NCBI GenBank assembly: GCA_026129465.1
Contig: JAHCIA010000001.1
Coordinates: 753,964 to 817,963 of the forward strand
Source: Flavobacteriales bacterium
GTDB lineage: Bacteria; Bacteroidota; Bacteroidia; Flavobacteriales_F; PHOS-HE28
Direction: 5' to 3'
Length of the DNA stretch: 64,000 nt
Each line of letters starts with the position of its first letter. The stretch's first letter is position 1. Under the pieces are notes generated by a model. That model was not told the origin of the DNA. It did no database searches and saw only the letters and a program-made list of their open reading frames with translations. The translations under genes and the position numbers were made by a program. Positions 1,522-50,841 of this stretch are shown piece by piece.

Positions 1522-3683
1522 CGCGTGAGGTCGAAGAAGGATGGATCGCCCGAGGCGGCGTCGGACACCACCACCGTGTTGTTCACGCTGTCGCTATAGT
1601 TCTGCATCTGTGCCTTCAGCGATCCGTAGTTGAAGAAGCTGTAGATGTCGTCCGGCCTTGCGTCCACCGGTATCCAGTAGGCGCGGCCGCCCACGGTTCG
1701 TCCGTGGCCGCTGTACCACACCAGGATGGTGTTCACCTTGCCCGTGCGGACCAGATCGCGCAGCTCCACGTTGAAGAGGCGCTCCATCTGCTGCTTGGTA
1801 AGATTCTTCTTGTGGATGGTGCGCTGCACGTTGTAGTTGGCGAAGGCCTTCTGCATGCGCGCGGCTTCCGCAGGTCCGTTCTGTATGCCTGGGAAAGAAC
1901 GATAGTCACCGTTTTCGATGTGCACCAGCCATGTGACGCCCGTGGCGTTGGATGGAGCGGGCGCGGCGGGTTTGACCGCCGCGACCGCCTCGGCCCTGCG
2001 CACGATGTTGAAGGTCTCCTCGGCAGTGTTGCCGTACTGGTCTTCCGCGCGGATGGTGAAGCGGTCCTTGTCCTTCACATCCAGCTTGATGCTGAAGTCG
2101 GGATCGAGCCGGTCGGAGGCGTAGCTCGCGTTCACACCGTTCACCGTAACGAGCCGGATCATGCTGGCATCCTGCACCGTGCCTTCGATGAAGAGTTCCG
2201 TGGCACCGGCACCGATGGTCACATCGCGGGCCGCACCGGGTTTGGGCGACGTGAGGGCGATCACCGGGGCCACGCCCTCCGAGCGCTCCACCCGCAGCAA
2301 TTCGGTGCTGAAGTTGTCGTAGACGTCGGTGGCCCGCACCTCGATCTCCTTGTCGGTGGGCGCGAACGGTATGGTCACCACGAAGCTGGGGTCCTTCTCG
2401 TCCTTGGCGAAGTCGGCGGGGACACCGTTCACCGTGATGCTCTTCAGCAGGCTCTTGTCTCGCACATAGCCGGAGACCTTCACATGCCGCAGCGCCGCGG
2501 ACACCTGCACCAGGTCGCCAATGCGGAAAGGCTCCACCACGTTGACCACCGGGGGGTCGCCCTCCCGGTTCATCTCATAGAGCAGTCCGGCGATCCGGTC
2601 GCGCGATGCGGCGATCTGCTGACGCTGTGCATCACTGTTCCCACCACGTTGGTCCACGGCACGCTGGGCCAGGTCCAGGTCGCGCAGCGCGCCATCGAGG
2701 TCAAGATTGGCTTCGCGGCATTCGGCGCGGAAGAGCAAGGCCTCCAGATCGTTGGGGTCCTCCAGCACCACACGGTTCAGGTCGTTCACGGCGTTCTGAT
2801 GCTGGCCATAGCCGTGGTAGTAGCGCGCCCGTTGCATATAGACGTCGCGGTCCGTGCGCTCCAACGCGATGCAGCGGCTGATGTCGTCGATGGACTTGGC
2901 GTACTCCTTCAGCTTCGCGTAGGCCTTGCTGCGCGTGAAGAGCGCGTCGGTGTACTGCGGGTCGAGTTCCAGCGCGCGTGTGCATTTCTCCACGGCCTGG
3001 TCCAGGGTGCGCATGCGCATGGCGGCCGCGGTGTACGTCTCGTGCAGGGCAAGCTTCGTTTCCGCCAGGGCCACATAGGCGGGCAGATAGAGGTGGTTCC
3101 AGGCCAGCACTTGGTCCAGGTCGGCCTCTGCGGCCTTGTAGTCGCGCATGGCCATGCGTACCAGCGCGTGCGTGTAGTGTGAATCGGTGGTGGCCTTTAG
3201 CGCCAGGGCCCGGTCGGAAGCGTTCACGGCGCGGTCCAGGTCGTTGAGCGCGAGGCTCGCACGCGTGAGCAGCAGCAACGCCCGCATGGACTTCGGGTCC
3301 CGGCGCAGGGCCTGTTCGCAGAGGTCGCGCGCCACGGTGAAGCTGTCCACCTCCATGCTGGCGTCCGCGGCATCCACGGCGAGCACGGCATCGGTGGGGC
3401 GTTGGGCCACGGCGTTGCGCAGATCGGTGGCCGCCATGTCCTTCCGGCCGAGCAGGGTGAACACTTCGGCCCGCGCACGATAGGCCTCGATCAGGCCCGG
3501 CTCCACGGCGATGGCCAACCCGTACTTCTCGGCCGCGCGTTCAAGTTCCTGCTGCTTGCGCAGGGCATGGCCCTCCTTCAGAAAGGGCTTGCCGGATTGG
3601 GCCATGGCCGAACCGGCCAGGATGAACAACAGACACACCGGCAGCAAGCGCCGGAGGACGACGTGACGTGGTGGTAGGAACAT
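1518..3683 (-). CDS. TPR protein with truncated, cysteine-less caspase-like domain
   Basis: 721 residues from ATG 3683, chosen because it opens a signal peptide (MFLPPRHVVLRRLLPVCLLF, ending GSAMAQ); the frame stays open further upstream without a leader. Roughly residues 30-370 are TPR repeats, followed by repeated modules in which ITVNGV and LVTVNGV strands recur. The last ~130 residues resemble a C14 caspase p20 domain: WLVHIENGDY, then the catalytic-His motif WYSGHG. Where homologues have DACxSGPSFY, this protein reads SDAASGDPSFF, so the nucleophile cysteine is an alanine. The protein ends four residues later without a p10 segment. Family knowledge suggests a periplasmic or surface scaffold; loss of protease activity is my inference. 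It overlaps the downstream propeller gene by 4 bp. Confidence 0.8.
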   Translation of the reverse strand: MFLPPRHVVLRRLLPVCLLFILAGSAMAQSGKPFLKEGHALRKQQELERAAEKYGLAIAVEPGLIEAYRARAEVFTLLGRKDMAATDLRNAVAQRPTDAVLAVDAADASMEVDSFTVARDLCEQALRRDPKSMRALLLLTRASLALNDLDRAVNASDRALALKATTDSHYTHALVRMAMRDYKAAEADLDQVLAWNHLYLPAYVALAETKLALHETYTAAAMRMRTLDQAVEKCTRALELDPQYTDALFTRSKAYAKLKEYAKSIDDISRCIALERTDRDVYMQRARYYHGYGQHQNAVNDLNRVVLEDPNDLEALLFRAECREANLDLDGALRDLDLAQRAVDQRGGNSDAQRQQIAASRDRIAGLLYEMNREGDPPVVNVVEPFRIGDLVQVSAALRHVKVSGYVRDKSLLKSITVNGVPADFAKDEKDPSFVVTIPFAPTDKEIEVRATDVYDNFSTELLRVERSEGVAPVIALTSPKPGAARDVTIGAGATELFIEGTVQDASMIRLVTVNGVNASYASDRLDPDFSIKLDVKDKDRFTIRAEDQYGNTAEETFNIVRRAEAVAAVKPAAPAPSNATGVTWLVHIENGDYRSFPGIQNGPAEAARMQKAFANYNVQRTIHKKNLTKQQMERLFNVELRDLVRTGKVNTILVWYSGHGRTVGGRAYWIPVDARPDDIYSFFNYGSLKAQMQNYSDSVNNTVVVSDAASGDPSFFDLTR

Positions 3684-3702
3684 CGGAACGGTGGCAGGCG
3701 AC

Positions 3703-3710
3703 CAAATGTA
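3703..3710 (-). promoter_or_regulatory. -7 box upstream of the TPR/caspase gene
   Basis: The minus strand reads TACATTTG, a full match to the Bacteroidota -7 consensus TAnnTTTG, 19 nt before ATG 3683. No clear -33 TTTG is visible. Confidence 0.5.
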
Positions 3711-3739
3711 GGCCGGAGGCACAGTTCCGCGATAGCGGC

Positions 3740-5203
3740 TCAGACCCGGAAGCGCAGGAAACCGAAGCTGTAGGAGACCATGCCGGGATCCTGGATGAAG
3801 AGCGAGAGCACGTCGCGCGTGGCGACTCCTCCCTCCCATCCGCCCTTCACGGAGCGGAAGGCGAGACCGAAGGGCACGAGAGTCTTGTACATGCCGCCCA
3901 GCCCCAGGCCGGTGTTGAGACCCAACCAGGGCGTGGCCATGAACTCACCTCCCACACCATACATGGGCGCGGTCAGGTTCCCTGGGGTCTCGTTCATGGG
4001 CACCACCACGTCGAAGCCCACCTGGGTCTTCTCCTTGATCCAGAAGGCGCCACCGGCGCGCAACTGCATGGGCATGGCCACCTGCTTTTCCTTGAGGCCC
4101 TCCCATTGCAGCACGCCATCATCACCGAAGAAGCGTTGTGCCTGGTCGTAGAAGTTGTAGTTGTCGAAACCGCCATGGTCGATCCGTTCCAGCACTTCGT
4201 CCGCAGCGGTGTAAACGTTGCCGTTCCACGTGATGGAGCCGATGTTGACGACCGCGAGCCCGAAGCGCATGGAGCCTTCCTTCTCCATGGCCAGGCCGAT
4301 ATCGCCGGAGAAGCCCTTGCCCACCGAGGTGAAACCCGAGCCCACAAGCGCGCTGGGATTGGTGAACGAGGCCGTGCCGTAGTTGATGTCATAGCCGGGT
4401 GACAAGGAGGAGTACGCCGTGAGCCTGCCGCCATCCTCACTGATCTCCATGATGCCGAGGCCCTGCAGGTAGCGCAAGGTGATGCCCGCGTGCAGGTCCC
4501 ATGCGCCCATGCGCGTCATGCGACGGCCCCAGCCCAATGCGTATTCGCGCACCCACTGGTGGGTGATGGTGCTTCCGTCCATCACCTGCGTGATGCGCCT
4601 TGGCGAACTGGCCAGCCCATAGCGGACCTGCCCGGCCTGCTCCACAGTGAGATCGGCGCGGGCCACCGTATCACCCGTGGTGAGGACCACCAGATCGAAG
4701 TAGGCCGCGTTGTAGCCCTGGAAGAGAATGCTGGAGGCCTCCCTGCCGAAAGTGCTGTACCACTGGATGCGGTCCATCACCTGGAATGCGAAGGCACCCG
4801 CGCTGTCCGTGTGCAGTGTGAACCCGATGCCGCGCACATCGATGTTGGCGGTGAAATCCTTGCCAGCGAAGGCGGTGGCCGCCATTTGCTTCTGCTGTGC
4901 GTTGAACTTGATGTTGTTGTCCTTGAGGAAATGCTCGTTGATGTCCTTGCGCGTCAAGGCGTCGCAATACACCGACCCGGAGACCTCCAGCAGACCGAAG
5001 GTGACCTTCTTGTCCTCGTAGGGCAGCTTGATGCCCAGGTTGGCCGGGTTGATGCCGATGGCCTGGTAGTCCGTGGCGAAGGCCGTGGACACCCATTTGC
5101 CGGTGTGCAGGAAGGCGGCGCCTTCCATTTGGGCGGCAACCGTGGTGGATAGGACCAGCCCCAGCACCATCAGCGCCAGGGCGGCGTAAATGCGGTGGAA
5201 CAT
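3740..5203 (-). CDS. DUF5723 family outer-membrane protein
   Basis: 487 residues with a signal peptide (MFHRIYAALALMVLG, cleaved after TTVAAQ). The mature N-terminus contains DYQAIGINPANLGIK, the hallmark of DUF5723, a Bacteroidota family predicted to form an outer-membrane beta-barrel. The rest alternates amphipathic strands with Gly/aromatic residues and ends SFGFLRFRV, a C-terminal aromatic strand of the kind BAM recognises. The biochemical role is not known. It lies 70 bp downstream of fabI and 56 bp upstream of the TPR/caspase gene, and has its own -7 box within an inverted repeat. Confidence 0.8.
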   Translation of the reverse strand: MFHRIYAALALMVLGLVLSTTVAAQMEGAAFLHTGKWVSTAFATDYQAIGINPANLGIKLPYEDKKVTFGLLEVSGSVYCDALTRKDINEHFLKDNNIKFNAQQKQMAATAFAGKDFTANIDVRGIGFTLHTDSAGAFAFQVMDRIQWYSTFGREASSILFQGYNAAYFDLVVLTTGDTVARADLTVEQAGQVRYGLASSPRRITQVMDGSTITHQWVREYALGWGRRMTRMGAWDLHAGITLRYLQGLGIMEISEDGGRLTAYSSLSPGYDINYGTASFTNPSALVGSGFTSVGKGFSGDIGLAMEKEGSMRFGLAVVNIGSITWNGNVYTAADEVLERIDHGGFDNYNFYDQAQRFFGDDGVLQWEGLKEKQVAMPMQLRAGGAFWIKEKTQVGFDVVVPMNETPGNLTAPMYGVGGEFMATPWLGLNTGLGLGGMYKTLVPFGLAFRSVKGGWEGGVATRDVLSLFIQDPGMVSYSFGFLRFRV

Positions 5204-5217
5204 GGTGGCAGGGCTTT

Positions 5218-5236
5218 GGTCTACGAAATGTAGACC
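5218..5236. promoter_or_regulatory. Perfect inverted repeat over the -7 box of the DUF5723 gene
   Basis: GGTCTAC-GAAAT-GTAGACC is a perfect 7-bp inverted repeat. It contains the minus-strand -7 element TACATTTC (5225-5232), 21 nt before ATG 5203. Its position suits a repressor operator, or a small hairpin at the start of the transcript. Confidence 0.4.
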
Positions 5237-5273
5237 GCCGCCTGCGCCGTTTCCAAGCGTTGTAACTTTTTCT

Positions 5274-6086
5274 TCAGCCGGTGAACTTGTCCATCACCTC
5301 GGGGGTAACGCCCGTGGCGCTGAAGCCGCCATCGTGGAAGAGGTTCTGCATGGTGACGTAGCGCGTGAGGTCGCTGAAGAGGGCGATGCAGTAGTTGGCG
5401 CAGGCTTCAGCAGGCGCATTGCCCAGCGGACTCATGGCCTGCGCGAATCCGAAGAAGCCGTCGAAGCCTTTCACGCCGCTGCCCGCCGTGGTCCAGGTGG
5501 GGCTCTGGCTCACGGTGTTCACACGCACCCCTTTGGCCTTGCCCAGCCGGTAGCCCCAACCGCGTGTAATGGACTCCAGGAGGGCCTTGGCGTCGGCCAT
5601 GTCACCGTAGTCTGGGAACACGCGTTGCGCGGCGATGTAGCTCAGGGCCACCACGCTGCCGCCCTGCGCCAGGGCATCGGCCTTGTGCGCCGCCTGCAGC
5701 ATGCGGTGCAGGCTCATGGCGCTCACGTCCAGCGTCTGCTTGTACCATTCATAATTCAGATCGTCGTAGCTGCGGCCCTTGCGCACATTGGGACTCATGC
5801 CGATGCTGTGCAGGATGAAATCGAGCGGACCGCCGAGTTTCTCCACCGCCCCATCGAACAGGGCCTTCAGATCGGTGTCGTTGGTGGCATCGGCGGGGAT
5901 GATGGCGCTGCCGGTGGCCTCGGCCAGTTTGTTGATCTCGCCCATGCGCATGGCCACCGGGGCATTGCTCAGCACGAAGGCGCCACCCTCTGCGTGGGCC
6001 AGTTCGGCCACCTTCCAGGCGATGCTTTGGTCGTTGAGTGCACCGGTGATGATGCCGCGTTTGCCTTTGAGGAGTCCGTAGGACAT
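5274..6086 (-). CDS. fabI: Enoyl-[acyl-carrier-protein] reductase (NADH) FabI
   Basis: 270 residues, the normal length for FabI, which catalyses the last reduction of each fatty-acid elongation cycle in the cytoplasm. The Rossmann start KRGIITGALNDQSIAWKVA has the FabI-type split glycine motif. The active site is SYIAAQRVFPDY at 149-160: Tyr150, Tyr160 and Lys167 give the characteristic Y-x6-K triad that separates FabI from ordinary SDRs. HSIGMSP (93-99) and the substrate loop near 205-230 are also recognisable. It lies 58 bp after recN and has its own -7 box. FabI is the target of triclosan-type inhibitors, and I see no FabK or FabV alternative in this window. Confidence 0.97.
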   Translation of the reverse strand: MSYGLLKGKRGIITGALNDQSIAWKVAELAHAEGGAFVLSNAPVAMRMGEINKLAEATGSAIIPADATNDTDLKALFDGAVEKLGGPLDFILHSIGMSPNVRKGRSYDDLNYEWYKQTLDVSAMSLHRMLQAAHKADALAQGGSVVALSYIAAQRVFPDYGDMADAKALLESITRGWGYRLGKAKGVRVNTVSQSPTWTTAGSGVKGFDGFFGFAQAMSPLGNAPAEACANYCIALFSDLTRYVTMQNLFHDGGFSATGVTPEVMDKFTG

Positions 6087-46166: not shown

Positions 46167-46198
46167 TTTGGATGATCCGTATTTCGACATTAACTTCA
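46167..46198 (+). promoter_or_regulatory. Bacteroidota promoter (TTTG - 20 nt - TAACTTCA) of the interrupted T9SS gene
   Basis: A -33 TTTG (46167-46170) and a -7-like TAACTTCA (46191-46198) are 20 nt apart, as in the Bacteroidota consensus TTTG-N19-21-TAnnTTTG. This is the only place where I see both elements well spaced. It puts transcription start around 46204, ahead of ATG 46220 and well after the upstream in-frame TTG at 46168. Confidence 0.55.
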
Positions 46199-46221
46199 TT
46201 ACTCCAAAATATATCTGCCAT

Positions 46222-46261
46222 GCATACCGCATACCGCATACCGCATACCGCAGACCGCATA
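46222..46261 (+). repeat. 7-bp tandem repeat (GCATACC) at the start of the T9SS gene
   Basis: Four perfect GCATACC units (46222-46249), one variant GCAGACC and a partial GCATA. The G of ATG 46220-46222 is the first base of the array. Because 7 is not a multiple of 3, changes in unit number shift the frame between this ATG and the signal peptide that follows. Confidence 0.9.
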
Positions 46262-47080
46262 GCTTCGCCCTATGCGTGGTCATCGCTTGCTCTATGATCG
46301 AGACATCGACCGCACAGAGCTATTACATCCCACCAGATATTTATGGAGACACATCTGGACCACATGCTTTGCGGCGCAACGATGGTCAGCTATTCAACAC
46401 AGCTGGCCAGGCCCAGAATGACATCAGGTACTCCGTTGAGCAATGGCCGGTCGGGATCCATTTGAAGGACAGCAGTGCCATTTCCTTCACACTCGCATCT
46501 TCCAACGATACCCTTGTCCCGGACACGCTGTATCGTGTCGACATGCACTTTCGGAATGCCAAACGCGTAGACCCGATCGCCATCGGCGTCCCGGTCCAAG
46601 GGGTGATGAACTACTACCTGGGCAGCACCAGTGTGGAAGGTGTACCAGCGTTCGATCGGGTGCTTTATCCGCAGGCATGGGATGACATCGATGTACACAT
46701 CTATTCGGCCAGCATGGGACCCAGAATGGCTTTCGTGGTCCATCCAGGTGGCAACCCCGCACAGATCAAACTCTTCTTCGAGGGACAGGACAGCCTGAAC
46801 ATCGACTGGCAGAATGCGTTGCGCCTATATATCAGGCACAGATGGGTCAGGTTCGAGGAGGCCGTCGCCTACCAAGTGACACCTGCTGGCGCCACCATAC
46901 CACTGGGTTGGATGGCGAGCTATGTCATCCTCAACGGCACACCGGTCGTCAGCTTCTCGTTCCAGGCCCACGACCCTTCCCTGCCGCTGGTGTTCCAGAT
47001 CGGTCCGCCGCCGATGCCCCTGCAGTCAGGAGGCGATCCAAAAAATCTCCATTGGAGCACTTTCGTTGGCGGTGGCACGA

Positions 47081-47088
47081 ATGAAGAA
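47081..47088 (+). repeat. Left copy of 8-bp target-site duplication
   Basis: ATGAAGAA directly before the left inverted repeat, identical to 48908-48915. Eight base pairs is the usual duplication length for the IS1595 family. Confidence 0.92.
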
Positions 47089-47112
47089 CGGAATTATTAA
47101 GATGTTGGGCGG
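47089..47112 (+). repeat. Left terminal inverted repeat of the IS1595-type element
   Basis: 24 bp, CGGAATT...TGTTGGGCGG; 21 of 24 positions match the reverse complement of 48884-48907. Confidence 0.9.
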
Positions 47113-48074
47113 ATGGCATTTTCCACCAACGTCTCGAACATGTCGTCATGGTGCCGGTTGTTGTATTTGAAGGCGAACTCGCACACGTAGCGCGGCAGGT
47201 GTTTGGGGCTTACCTGGTGGTATTGGCCCACGATGCCGCGCTTCATGAGCGCCCAGAAACTTTCGATGGTGTTGGTGTTCACGCCCTTGTATGAGTAGGC
47301 ACGGGCGTGGTCGATCTTGATGTGGTCAATGATCCGGTCAAGGCGGGAGTAGCCCGAGTAGTTGTCCGTGATCAGCAAGGCGTCCTCGGTGGCCACGTGC
47401 CGTTCCACCATGGCCCGCAGGTTCTTGGCCGTTAGGGAGCGCATCACTTGGGCCACCACGGTGCCGTCACGCTGCACAATGCCCACCACCGGCACCTTCT
47501 TGGTGCCGCGCCCGCGCTTTACGTTGGTGGCCACCCGCGCCGGGTTGCCACGCAGGGGCCGCAGGTCGAAGCCGTCGGCCTTGGCATCCTTCACACGCTG
47601 GTTCATGGCAACGCGCTGCCCCGCCGTCATGCGTACAAGGTTGGGCTTGCGCGGCTTGCCGCCCACGAAGGTCTCGTCCATTTCCACCACGTCGTTGAGC
47701 GGGTCCATGTCGGCCTGCTCCATGGCCATAAGGTCCCGGATCTTGTGGTACATGGCCCATGCCGTTGGGTAACTTACCCCAAGGTTGCGGTGTAGCTGCA
47801 ACGCACTGAGGCCCTTCTTCGCATCGGCCACGATACCGAAGGCATAGAGCCACGTGCGCAAGGGTAACCGGGTACCCTGCAACGGGGTGCCTACGGTAAC
47901 GAAGGTGGACCGCCCACACCCAAGGCATTTGTGCCGCAGGTCTTGGTAACGAGCGCCAAGTTTGGTACCCTTGCAATAGGCACACTTCGGGCGCTTACCC
48001 CAGCGCACCCGCTCGAAATGCGCCACGGCATCGACTTCCGTGGGGAAGCGATTGGAGATCTCAACGACGTTCAT
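47097..48074 (-). CDS. IS1595 family transposase
   Basis: 325 residues. The N-terminal zinc ribbon has Cys31, Cys34, Cys50 and Cys53 (CAYC...KCLGCG), the mark of IS1595/ISXO2 transposases. A helix-turn-helix (LSALQLHRNLGVSYPTAWAMYHKIR, 89-113) follows. The catalytic core has Asp133 (VVEMDETFVGG), Asp237 (LLITDNYSGY) and Glu271 (NTNTIESFWALMKRG), with a C-terminal FAFKYNNR. All catalytic residues are present, so the enzyme should be active. The last codons and the TAA stop overlap the left inverted repeat. Confidence 0.95.
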   Translation of the reverse strand: MNVVEISNRFPTEVDAVAHFERVRWGKRPKCAYCKGTKLGARYQDLRHKCLGCGRSTFVTVGTPLQGTRLPLRTWLYAFGIVADAKKGLSALQLHRNLGVSYPTAWAMYHKIRDLMAMEQADMDPLNDVVEMDETFVGGKPRKPNLVRMTAGQRVAMNQRVKDAKADGFDLRPLRGNPARVATNVKRGRGTKKVPVVGIVQRDGTVVAQVMRSLTAKNLRAMVERHVATEDALLITDNYSGYSRLDRIIDHIKIDHARAYSYKGVNTNTIESFWALMKRGIVGQYHQVSPKHLPRYVCEFAFKYNNRHHDDMFETLVENAIRPTS

Positions 48075-48151
48075 GGGTTGTCGAAACGTTCAGTACAGTA
48101 TATCAGAAGCGCGCCAACAATAAGCCCAACTATGCAACAGAGCAAGAGTTC

Positions 48152-48868
48152 ATGAAGTGGTATCCCTCTACGGCAGTAGTAGACACCTTCACGACCCTTA
48201 ACCCGGACTGGGTTATTGCGGCATTCACAGTCATCATTACCATTGTCACATGGTGGCAGGGACGATTGATACGAAGGGCCAACATTGTTGCGCGCAATGC
48301 TGCCGATGCCGCCAAAATATCCGCCGATGCCGCCGTACAAACTGCGTCCGATATGCGGGAGGCTGAGCGCGGCAGGGTTGGGGTATCCTCCATGTCCATG
48401 GACTACACCGACACTCTTCGCATCCGCTATGCCCTTTTGAACTACGGCCGGTCCTCCATAGAAATCCGGCAGGTGAACTATCGGTATGAATTGCACGGAA
48501 GCAAAGGCGTCGTTCATGTTAGCGACATCACCCAGGGCGGATCGCTTCTCATATTGGGTTCGGGCGAAAGAATAGACAGCTCGGAACGGCGCGAAAAGGC
48601 ATCCCATTCCGGAGAGGGCCTGTTGCCTCCAATGGGTCCGTGGGATATGACCCCCGAAATGCACAACAGCATTCTGGAGAATTACGAAGGCACCCAATTG
48701 TTCATCATTGGGTGTATCGTCTATTCCACGGCATTCGGCACCTTGTACCATTGGCGCTTCCGGTTGGGGTATGAAGCAAGCCGTGGCATGTTTGCCAATG
48801 ACTTCCGAAGAGGTAATGAAGAGGTGCCTTTCACAGGCGACCCCACGCAGCCCCATCAGTGCGAGTAG
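48152..48868 (+). CDS. Passenger gene of the IS: single-pass membrane protein of unknown function
   Basis: 238 residues, read away from the transposase with 77 bp between the start codons. One N-terminal membrane helix (WVIAAFTVIITIVTWW, about 19-35) is followed by an Ala-rich coiled coil (RRANIVARNAADAAKISADAAVQTASDMREAE, about 40-72) and a soluble domain of about 160 residues with alternating strands (TLRIRYALLNYGRSSIEIRQVNYRYELHG). I recognise no family. Its codon and base composition are more AT-rich than the flanking chromosome. The helix plus coiled-coil layout resembles small phage or plasmid membrane proteins, but that is only a resemblance. Confidence 0.75.
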   Translation: MKWYPSTAVVDTFTTLNPDWVIAAFTVIITIVTWWQGRLIRRANIVARNAADAAKISADAAVQTASDMREAERGRVGVSSMSMDYTDTLRIRYALLNYGRSSIEIRQVNYRYELHGSKGVVHVSDITQGGSLLILGSGERIDSSERREKASHSGEGLLPPMGPWDMTPEMHNSILENYEGTQLFIIGCIVYSTAFGTLYHWRFRLGYEASRGMFANDFRRGNEEVPFTGDPTQPHQCE

Positions 48869-48883
48869 GCATGTTAAAAGACA

Positions 48884-48907
48884 CCGCCCAACAACTTTAC
48901 AATTCCG
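48884..48907 (-). repeat. Right terminal inverted repeat of the IS1595-type element
   Basis: 24 bp; on the minus strand CGGAATTGTAAAG then TTGTTGGGCGG, matching the left end at 21 of 24 positions. Confidence 0.9.
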
Positions 48908-48915
48908 ATGAAGAA
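48908..48915 (+). repeat. Right copy of 8-bp target-site duplication
   Basis: ATGAAGAA, identical to 47081-47088. Confidence 0.92.
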
Positions 48916-50841
48916 TTGGAAAGTGTGAAGGTGGACGAAGAGGGCAATGCCTATGCTTGTGGATACAGCCGATGGCATGACTTCCCAGTTGCGCCGGGTT
49001 CGGAAGTTTTCAACCCAAATAATGGCGAGTATGAGGGCGGGGTTGCGGCGGTGGTCATCAGGTACAATGGACACAGCAAGCAGATCCAATGGGGTACCTT
49101 CTATGGTGGGGGTACTTCATTCGATGCCCTCTCGGAGACCAAAGCGCACAAGGTCGCCTTGGGAAAAGGGTTGACAGGGGCAGGTCCATATGCTTTCGTT
49201 ACTGGGTCGACCAACAGCCACGAATTCGCGGCATACCGTGAAGGGGGTTCCATATTCCATGATGCCCATATAGATGGCTATGATGGAGGACTCCATAGAA
49301 TGTGGGTGGGAGCTTTCCGAAGATCTAATGGCATTCGAGACTGGGCCACGACCCATGGACAATCCGGCGCATCCACATGGTCTGAACATGGTATGGCCAT
49401 CGATGTGGATGAGGACGGACTACTGGCAGTGGGCGGGCACGTGAGCCATCCTGAATGGGGGCCGATCACGCAATACCCCACCGTAGCGCCCCCAGGTGCT
49501 TTCACAAGATCCGATGGTGGAGGGTTCTTCCTCGTTTTCGATGAACAGTACCAGATCAAGTGGTGTACCCAATGGGGCCAGCAAGCACCGGAGACGATGA
49601 TCAGGGACATGCGCATCGCCCCTGCGGAGGAAGGCGTCAAGCACATGTGGATCACGGGTTCCACGGCCAGTTGGTTCACCTACCCCAACAGCGCTCCCTT
49701 GGATGTGGTACCTCCAACAGGTGGCCAGGGATTCTACCAACCAACGGATCCGAGCCAATTCTCGATGTTCGTGGCCAAGCTCGACATCACACATACGCAT
49801 CAGATCGAGTTGAGCACCTATTGGGGAAGCAACAGCATTGATGTCGCCTATGCCTTGGCGTTGCATGAGGACCAGCTCTGGGTGGTGGGCAGCACATTGG
49901 CTTCAACCCTGGACCCCGATAAAGCGCCCTACCCTGGCGGGGGCAATTACCACAGGATCGTCACGAACGGTGAAACCGAGGCGGTCATCCTATGCTTCAG
50001 GACGGACCCATGGGACTTGTGGTACGGTACCTTGTACGGCGGCAGCGACAAGGACGTGATCCTGAGTGTGACATCGGACGGCGCTGGCCGGATCTACATG
50101 ATCGGCGACAGCCGCAGCCCAACAGGTACATTGGGCAGCGGCAATCCGCCAGCCTACTTTGCCATGGAGAACCATGGCATACCCTGGACGCGGGACGCCT
50201 TCCTGATCGGCATTCAGGCCCCTCCAGGCCAAGCACCGCATCTTTTCTGGCGTACCGCTTTCGGCGGTGCAGGAACCGAACGGGGCTGGGGGATCGCCGC
50301 CACATCCGACGAGGTTTTCATCTGTGGCGCCACGGCCTCGCAGCGCGCCTGGGGTGCCGGTCCCATGGATTTCCCTTTGGTGGAGTATCAACCAGGGATC
50401 CCATTGGGGTATTTCCAGTACGTGAACAACTACGGTACTGGCAGCAATCCTTTCGCGCCTTGGTACGACATGGAGTACTTCCTGGACTTCCATCCATGGA
50501 TGCTCGCCCAACCCGAAGGGATCCCATGGGGCTATGATGCCTTCATGGCCTCGTTCGACGTGTCAGCTACAGTTGGCATCCCTCCGCTCAACAGCTTGTG
50601 GGATACTGCGGGCCTTCACGCAGTACTCCTGGATCAGAATGGCCTTTGGCAATTGGACCTGCCAGGCCAGGGTCCATGGAACATCGCATTGTACGACGCT
50701 GGGGGTCGGTTGGTGGAGCAGATCCATGTCCAACACCCCCAGCCCACCATATCGTTGGTTGCCCGAGCAAGTGGGATATACGCCATCCGGGTCTTGAATA
50801 ACCACGGTGCGGTCTATTCCTCCAAGCTTTTCAAACCATGA
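48908..50841 (+). pseudogene. 3' part of the IS-split T9SS cargo gene (SBBP repeats and sorting domain)
   Basis: From 48916 the frame continues exactly where the left fragment stopped (TNEE then LESVKVDEEGNAYACGYS), so the original protein had about 930-950 residues. SBBP/beta-propeller repeats follow, marked by WGTFYGGGTSFDAL, STYWGSNSIDVAYALAL, LWYGTLYGGSDKDVIL and WRTAFGGAGTERGWGIA. The last ~85 residues are a type A sorting domain (PWNIALYDAGGRLVEQI, then ARASGIYAIRVLNNHG). Without a signal peptide this fragment cannot be exported. An accidental ATG at 48871 inside the IS could still start it, giving a useless cytosolic product. The stop overlaps the next gene by 4 bp. Confidence 0.85.

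Follow-up and report, generated by a model that had tools for sequence, protein, structure and literature searches.

The window, that is, the whole 64,000-nucleotide stretch of Flavobacteriales DNA analysed here, contains a complete IS1595-family transposon of 1,819 bp with two genes, a transposase and a passenger (Table 1). The transposon ends in near-perfect 24-bp terminal repeats, with 21 of the first 25 positions matching between left and right ends, and is flanked on both sides by the 8-bp direct repeat ATGAAGAA, its target-site duplication (TSD). The transposase is matched by NF033547 of NCBIfam (E 6.2e-55, 186 bits, cut-off 75) and by PF12762 of Pfam (E 2.6e-36, 125 bits, cut-off 27). 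The passenger gene is divergent from it, and 39 bp separate the passenger 3′ end from the element's right end. No sigma-70-type consensus was found in the gap between the two genes. The element interrupts a host gene: the empty site, with the element and one duplication removed (46168-50841), encodes 948 amino acids in frame. The sorting tail of the 3′ part matches TIGR04183 at E 0.0018, under the cut-off of that model.

An initial annotation, made from the sequence alone, had described a 238-residue gene inside an IS1595 element, with one membrane helix, an Ala-rich coiled coil and a strand-rich domain, and with a higher A+T content than its host. The analysis bears this description out: the coordinates and the + strand are exact, the element is established by its terminal inverted repeats (TIRs), TSD, transposase and a second copy, and the protein architecture agrees with hydropathy and with strands assigned by homology to a family model. 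G+C is 54.6% in the passenger gene, 61.2% in the transposase gene and 63.6% in the window, and just 1.6% of 714-bp segments match the low value of the passenger.

Table 1. Features of the transposon and of the interrupted host gene (positions in the window).
Feature	Coordinates	Strand	Evidence
Host gene 5′ part, DUF7948 domain	46168..47088	+	PF25778, E 1e-26
Left TSD, ATGAAGAA	47081..47088	+	
Complete IS1595-family transposon with passenger	47089..48907	.	TIRs and 8-bp TSD; second identical copy
Left TIR, CGGAATTATTAAGATGTTGGGCGG	47089..47112	+	21/25 match to right end
IS1595 family transposase, 324-325 aa, intact reading frame	47100..48074	-	NF033547, PF12762
Gap between divergent genes, 77 bp	48075..48151	.	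Sequence; putative promoter region
Passenger gene (238 aa) with membrane helix, coiled coil and predicted Ig-like domain	48152..48868	+	Family profile, 23-32 bits
Passenger membrane helix, residues about 20-40	48209..48271	+	Hydropathy and charge count
Ala-rich coiled-coil linker, residues 41-72	48272..48367	+	Sequence; helix 67-107 in family model
Predicted Ig-like beta-sandwich, residues about 73-221	48368..48814	+	Alignment, beta-domain-only profile test, family model
Right TIR, CGGAATTGTAAAGTTGTTGGGCGG	48884..48907	-	Partner of left end
Right TSD, ATGAAGAA	48908..48915	+	
Host gene 3′ part, SBBP repeat, weak T9SS sorting tail	48916..50841	+	PF06739, E 1e-6

Two copies of the transposon and the protein they carry

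The whole element is present a second time on the same contig, at ~1.91 Mb and 1.1 Mb away, identical over 1,822 bp and including the same passenger without a base difference. This copy has a TSD of its own, TTCCATTT, and five additional letters, CGGAA, between TSD and TIR on the left. Both copies interrupt genes; the second (locus L005, 3078-6499, at ~1.911 Mb) splits another repeat-rich gene of secreted type. Ends of this sort occur in the genome only four times, as the two pairs, one per copy, so that a search for further copies of the ends, proposed in the initial annotation, does bring up the same passenger. Because the gene is present in both copies, at different sites, it is a passenger of the transposon and relocates whenever the element does. 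The window transposon is a recently active transporter insertion sequence (IS), a type in which the transposase is accompanied by a gene dispensable for transposition. Among 44 other genomes of the genus the passenger was absent, the sole other match being a chance hit of 42 residues, and a search for the element ends in these congeners gave only two matches with three mismatches, versus one for a reversed control pattern. The element's history is most simply read as a recent arrival and a subsequent local jump.

The passenger protein has a single membrane segment at about residues 20-40, judged by hydropathy, and its C-terminal half is beta-rich. The charge around the helix is -2 before and +3 after, a trend shared by most members of the family described below, and these flanking charges suggest a cytoplasmic location for the C-terminal domain. 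An open reading frame (ORF) antisense to the gene (48071-48856, 261 aa) was rejected, as codon-position G+C does not favour it and the homology lies on the + strand.

A family with membrane helix, coil and predicted Ig-like domain

Direct searches with the passenger retrieved no relatives from viral contigs, genome contigs, 147 relatives of the host or a first sample of 395 genomes of the phylum, nor did tblastn against plasmids and phages. Weak matches at L015, L016 and L018 were inspected and rejected as chance or coil-only. Pfam, NCBIfam and PADLOC gave zero matches, a PHROG match covered the coil region only, and a PDB sequence search returned nothing usable. As a lead only, we presumed that the protein belongs to an unnamed membrane-anchored family marked by two motifs, the turn N-x-G-x-T-P-A and the strand G-x-[IV]-x-Y-x-D-x-F-G-x4-T-x-F. 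A degenerate motif, Y-G-R-[IV]-x-Y-x-D-x-F-G, yielded one real family member (L057), and a probe of the presumed family found nothing in plasmids. In the DNA of viral contigs the strand motif occurred in 22 stretches, the majority of which code for proteins that combine a coil, one or two membrane helices and a domain with both motifs.

Profiles built from such sequences recognise the passenger. A 16-member profile that leaves out the window protein scores it at 23.0 bits (best of 1,000 shuffles 7.4), and a 24-member profile, from which it is likewise excluded, at 32.3 bits (maximum among 4,000 controls 17.2, including 2,000 in which helix and coil were kept and only the remainder was shuffled). 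The beta domain of the passenger by itself scores 15.7-18.6 bits, with a best shuffle of 8.6. The invariant pattern of the family is N-x-G and G-x3-Y-x3-F-G-x6-F, and all seven invariant residues are found in the passenger (N97, G99, G187, Y191, F195, G196 and F203); it differs at three near-invariant positions, where Ala103, Asp193 and Thr201 are not kept. Profiles and alignment make it very probable that the passenger belongs to an uncatalogued family of proteins with a membrane helix, a coiled coil and an Ig-like domain, of which it is a divergent, remote member.

The initial annotation had recognised no family. It was right in that no catalogued family matches, and neither Pfam nor NCBIfam holds a model for this one; it fell short in that relatives exist: they form a diverse family, absent from the catalogues, whose members turn up repeatedly in IS1595-type elements. 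Family members are highly divergent, at 15-25% identity. No conserved catalytic set was seen in the family alignment, which argues against an enzyme role. Five of 17 members match the unnamed PHROG 9607 (best E 1.5e-5). The family is rare in Bacteroidota, with three solid matches and one weak match among 394 other genomes, and tblastn gave nothing in plasmids with L057, L070 and L096 as queries, or in phages with L057 and L070. Several members stand by themselves close to genes for phage structure or lysis (L072, L073 and L074). One viral contig carries three family paralogues in tandem (L061, 541-3234).

Profile search and structure prediction, the other check proposed at the outset, gave a family match by profile as described, and a poor fold for the passenger itself: predicted from its single sequence by AlphaFold, it reached a pLDDT of 44 and was left out of the fold comparison. 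The confident fold is that of a family representative, the L070 member, folded by AlphaFold2 with 21 homologues, the window protein included (mean pLDDT 84). Its model shows N-terminal helices, two of which fit membrane segments, a long helix corresponding to the coil, and a sandwich of seven strands interrupted by one short helix. Matches to this fold are many and middling, among them Kir cytoplasmic domains, TRAP subunits, WxLIP and ApaG; the best Foldseek E is 1.3e-3 and the VIA Z is at best 8.8, with many near-tied rows. The matches thus point to a predicted Ig-like sandwich and to nothing more specific, and the lack of a named family among them was not counted as evidence against one. The best structural neighbour in a library of viral models comes from Rhizobium phage RHEph01 and is labelled 'transmembrane protein' (E 9e-7).

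Recurrence beside IS1595 transposases

The neighbourhoods of family members were scanned, and an IS1595 transposase was found beside three of them, divergent every time (L065, L070 and L071). A separate scan used the end sequence CGGTATTATGNNGCAANNNNMMC alone, with the passenger motif unused, and gave 38 loci. Two of these, L096 and L109, each pair an IS1595 transposase with a family member divergent from it, and L117 does so with a weaker member; a search by ends, as the initial annotation had suggested, hence leads to related passengers in other elements. The beta domains of these three score 43, 40 and 13 bits, respectively, and no shuffle scored that high. Both TIRs and a TSD are present in L070, which has perfect 25-bp ends and the TSD GGCAACTG, and in L096, with the TSD GAAAATAG. 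The passenger family therefore occupies the same terminal, divergent place in at least five other IS1595-type loci, all on viral contigs, of which these two are complete elements. Where the adjoining end is recognisable, the passenger 3′ end lies ~95-140 bp from the terminal repeat, compared with 39 bp in the window. L121 resembles a further case by eye and by layout; it was not counted, with a profile score of just 7.8 bits.

Family genes also occur with IS1595-type ends in other arrangements. The L080 element measures 1,100 bp and has two such ends, the TSD CTTTTTTG and a family gene inside, without transposase, and at L069 and L108 one IS1595-type end adjoins a family gene. A generic search for TSDs and TIRs around lone family genes found L080 only. 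We are highly confident that the family is a recurrent cargo of IS1595 elements. Recurrence also bears on the notion that the gene was captured by chance and hitchhikes without a function under selection, or that it is an ORF arising by chance opposite another frame. The A+T-richness relative to the host and the long antisense ORF would fit such an origin; the repeated occurrence of this one family in one position, in IS1595 loci independent of each other, and conserved domain motifs on the + strand speak against it, and we consider it very improbable.

The link between family and IS1595 elements is frequent and not universal, because there are plasmid loci without the family and because the Bacteroidota members L083, L084 and L085 have no adjoining transposase. 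Twelve plasmid IS1595 loci with the nearest transposases were sampled and held no family member; many consist of a transposase and a coiled-coil gene only, and in some the cargo is different. The two relatives closest to the window transposase, L053 and L054 (53% and 51% identical, both from Bacteroidota), likewise come with different cargo. Since neither the plasmid loci nor these nearest relatives hold a member, the family is one among several cargo types of IS1595-type transposons, and a recurrent one. The neighbours of the Bacteroidota member at L084 (1396-3435) resemble, by eye only, a Panacea/SocA-type antitoxin pair.

A range of other cargo was observed near IS1595-type elements. The L054 element (1541-5726; 4,186 bp, in a Chitinophagaceae MAG) has similar ends, CGGAACTATAAACTAATTGGGC, and the TSD ATTTTTTA; a Bro-N protein and one with a PKD domain are among its cargo. 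At L053 (1-357) a truncated ORF with membrane helix and coil lies just upstream of the transposase; it is different cargo from the window passenger, with a similar N-terminal layout. A 1,213-bp element without transposase, found in two viral contigs (L098, 6234-7446, and L116, 7259-8471), has IS1595-like ends, the TSD CATAATTC and an N6/N4 DNA methylase as cargo. In a Bacteroidota genome, an AbiTii-domain gene lies directly 3′ of an IS1595 transposase (L047, 1997-2917).

Two small genes recur around these elements and are absent from the window element. A DUF6471 gene (PF20075) stands just upstream of the passenger in several elements. Genes of this type adjoin IS1595-type transposases, and are upstream of the passenger wherever one is present (L096, 1725-2081; L109, 6120-6356; L117, 3289-3510; L121, 7773-7997; L114, 3839-4063); PF20075 was confirmed in L096, L121 and L114, and the L109 and L117 genes were assigned by eye. 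An unnamed coiled-coil gene of ~110-175 aa is often found at the far end (L070, 2096-2620; L096, 3956-4375; L121, 10231-10728; L124, 480-815), and the three such genes scanned against Pfam gave no match above cut-off.

The constant place of the passenger, divergent to the transposase and adjoining one end, together with the small DUF6471 and coiled-coil genes often alongside it in viral-contig elements, could indicate an accessory or regulator of transposition that tethers the transposase or regulates it or its expression. Such a role is unlikely: the gene is missing from many IS1595 elements whose ends and transposases are similar (for example L135, 1,132 bp with a transposase alone), family members are also found away from transposases, and a membrane anchor is unusual in a transposition factor.

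Proposed role and comparison with known systems

Our best explanation for the whole, to which we assign a probability of about 0.7, is that the gene is IS1595 cargo, a remote member of the family, and encodes a membrane binding protein that gives a benefit. Transcription would start from the 77-bp divergent region. The helix would anchor the protein in the inner membrane with the sandwich on the cytoplasmic side, and the coil would make it an oligomer. The sandwich is probably a cytoplasmic binding domain, which would bind a partner instead of catalysing a reaction. The gene would be carried for an advantage to host or element, most plausibly interference with other mobile DNA at the membrane.

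The initial annotation had read an effector, immunity or regulatory role from the layout of the gene. This is not upheld, as there is no match to toxin, antitoxin, defence or regulator families, and the layout is indecisive. A reading in line with that proposal makes the passenger a toxin, an immunity protein or a component of a toxin-antitoxin pair by which the element is stabilised, and the antitoxin-like neighbours seen by eye at L084 would agree with it. The passenger itself has no partner gene in its element, where a 77-bp gap is followed by the transposase, and matches no toxin or antitoxin family; we hold this to be slightly less likely still than an accessory role.

As for interference with other mobile DNA, a membrane-anchored cargo protein could block phages or mobile DNA in the manner of a prophage moron or superinfection-exclusion protein. 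This role is favoured among the possible advantages because lone family genes lie in phage-like regions, the sequences diverge fast, and an AbiTii gene (L047) or a DNA methylase (L098) is cargo at related IS1595 loci. The family is readily met on viral contigs, a structural neighbour is a phage 'transmembrane protein', and the alignment is without a conserved catalytic set, all of which is consistent with exclusion. Against it, PADLOC matched neither the passenger nor any of 25 members (best E among these 0.017, spanning the coil end and first strand), the viral collection was the most heavily searched, which biases occurrence there, and the neighbouring cargo types are anecdotal. We therefore regard an exclusion or defence role as tentative. 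More speculative again, and rather doubtful, is the wider proposal that IS1595-type transposons of several phyla share a dedicated, fast-diverging membrane passenger family, which has a fixed place at one end, is at times moved by itself in cassettes lacking a transposase, and protects the host, and so the transposon, from competing phages or mobile elements.

Simple insertion sequences are usually regarded as carrying only the genes needed to move. In this case a single membrane-protein family that neither Pfam nor NCBIfam contains occurs repeatedly as cargo, at one and the same position, in IS1595-type transposons from unrelated bacteria, and once in a cassette without transposase; such recurrence suggests selection for the cargo. 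In the resources searched, both the family and its recurrence in IS1595 elements appear to be new; an earlier listing as 'hypothetical' in ISfinder is possible. The family is a testable candidate, and the end sequences are a means of finding more such cargo. If the passenger does exclude other mobile DNA, small transposons would arm their hosts as prophages do.

Several known systems resemble parts of this arrangement. Like the passenger family, the Kir cytoplasmic domain, TRAP subunits and WxLIP Ig-like domains have a membrane helix beside a single beta-sandwich; they differ in showing no sequence similarity to it, and middling scores are common to any Ig-like sandwich, so that this likeness between models seems to be no evidence of homology or common function. 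The elements at L070 and L096 share with the window element TIRs starting CGG-x-ATTAT, an 8-bp TSD and a transposase divergent from a terminal family member. They differ in their size of 3.6-3.7 kb, a far-end coiled-coil gene and, in L096, a DUF6471 gene, and their transposases and passengers are just remotely similar to those of the window. L080 resembles a mobile insertion cassette (MIC), with a passenger gene alone within IS1595-like ends and a TSD, whereas the window element has kept its transposase and hence is not a MIC. ISs with passenger genes are described as transporter ISs in a passage of PMC3129680, where Siguier, Gagnevin and Chandler (2009) is cited for the IS1595 family. With the IS1595 transporter ISs the window element shares the transposase, the TIRs, the 8-bp target duplication and the internal passenger, and it is set apart from them by a passenger that comes from an uncatalogued, putatively membrane-anchored Ig-like family.
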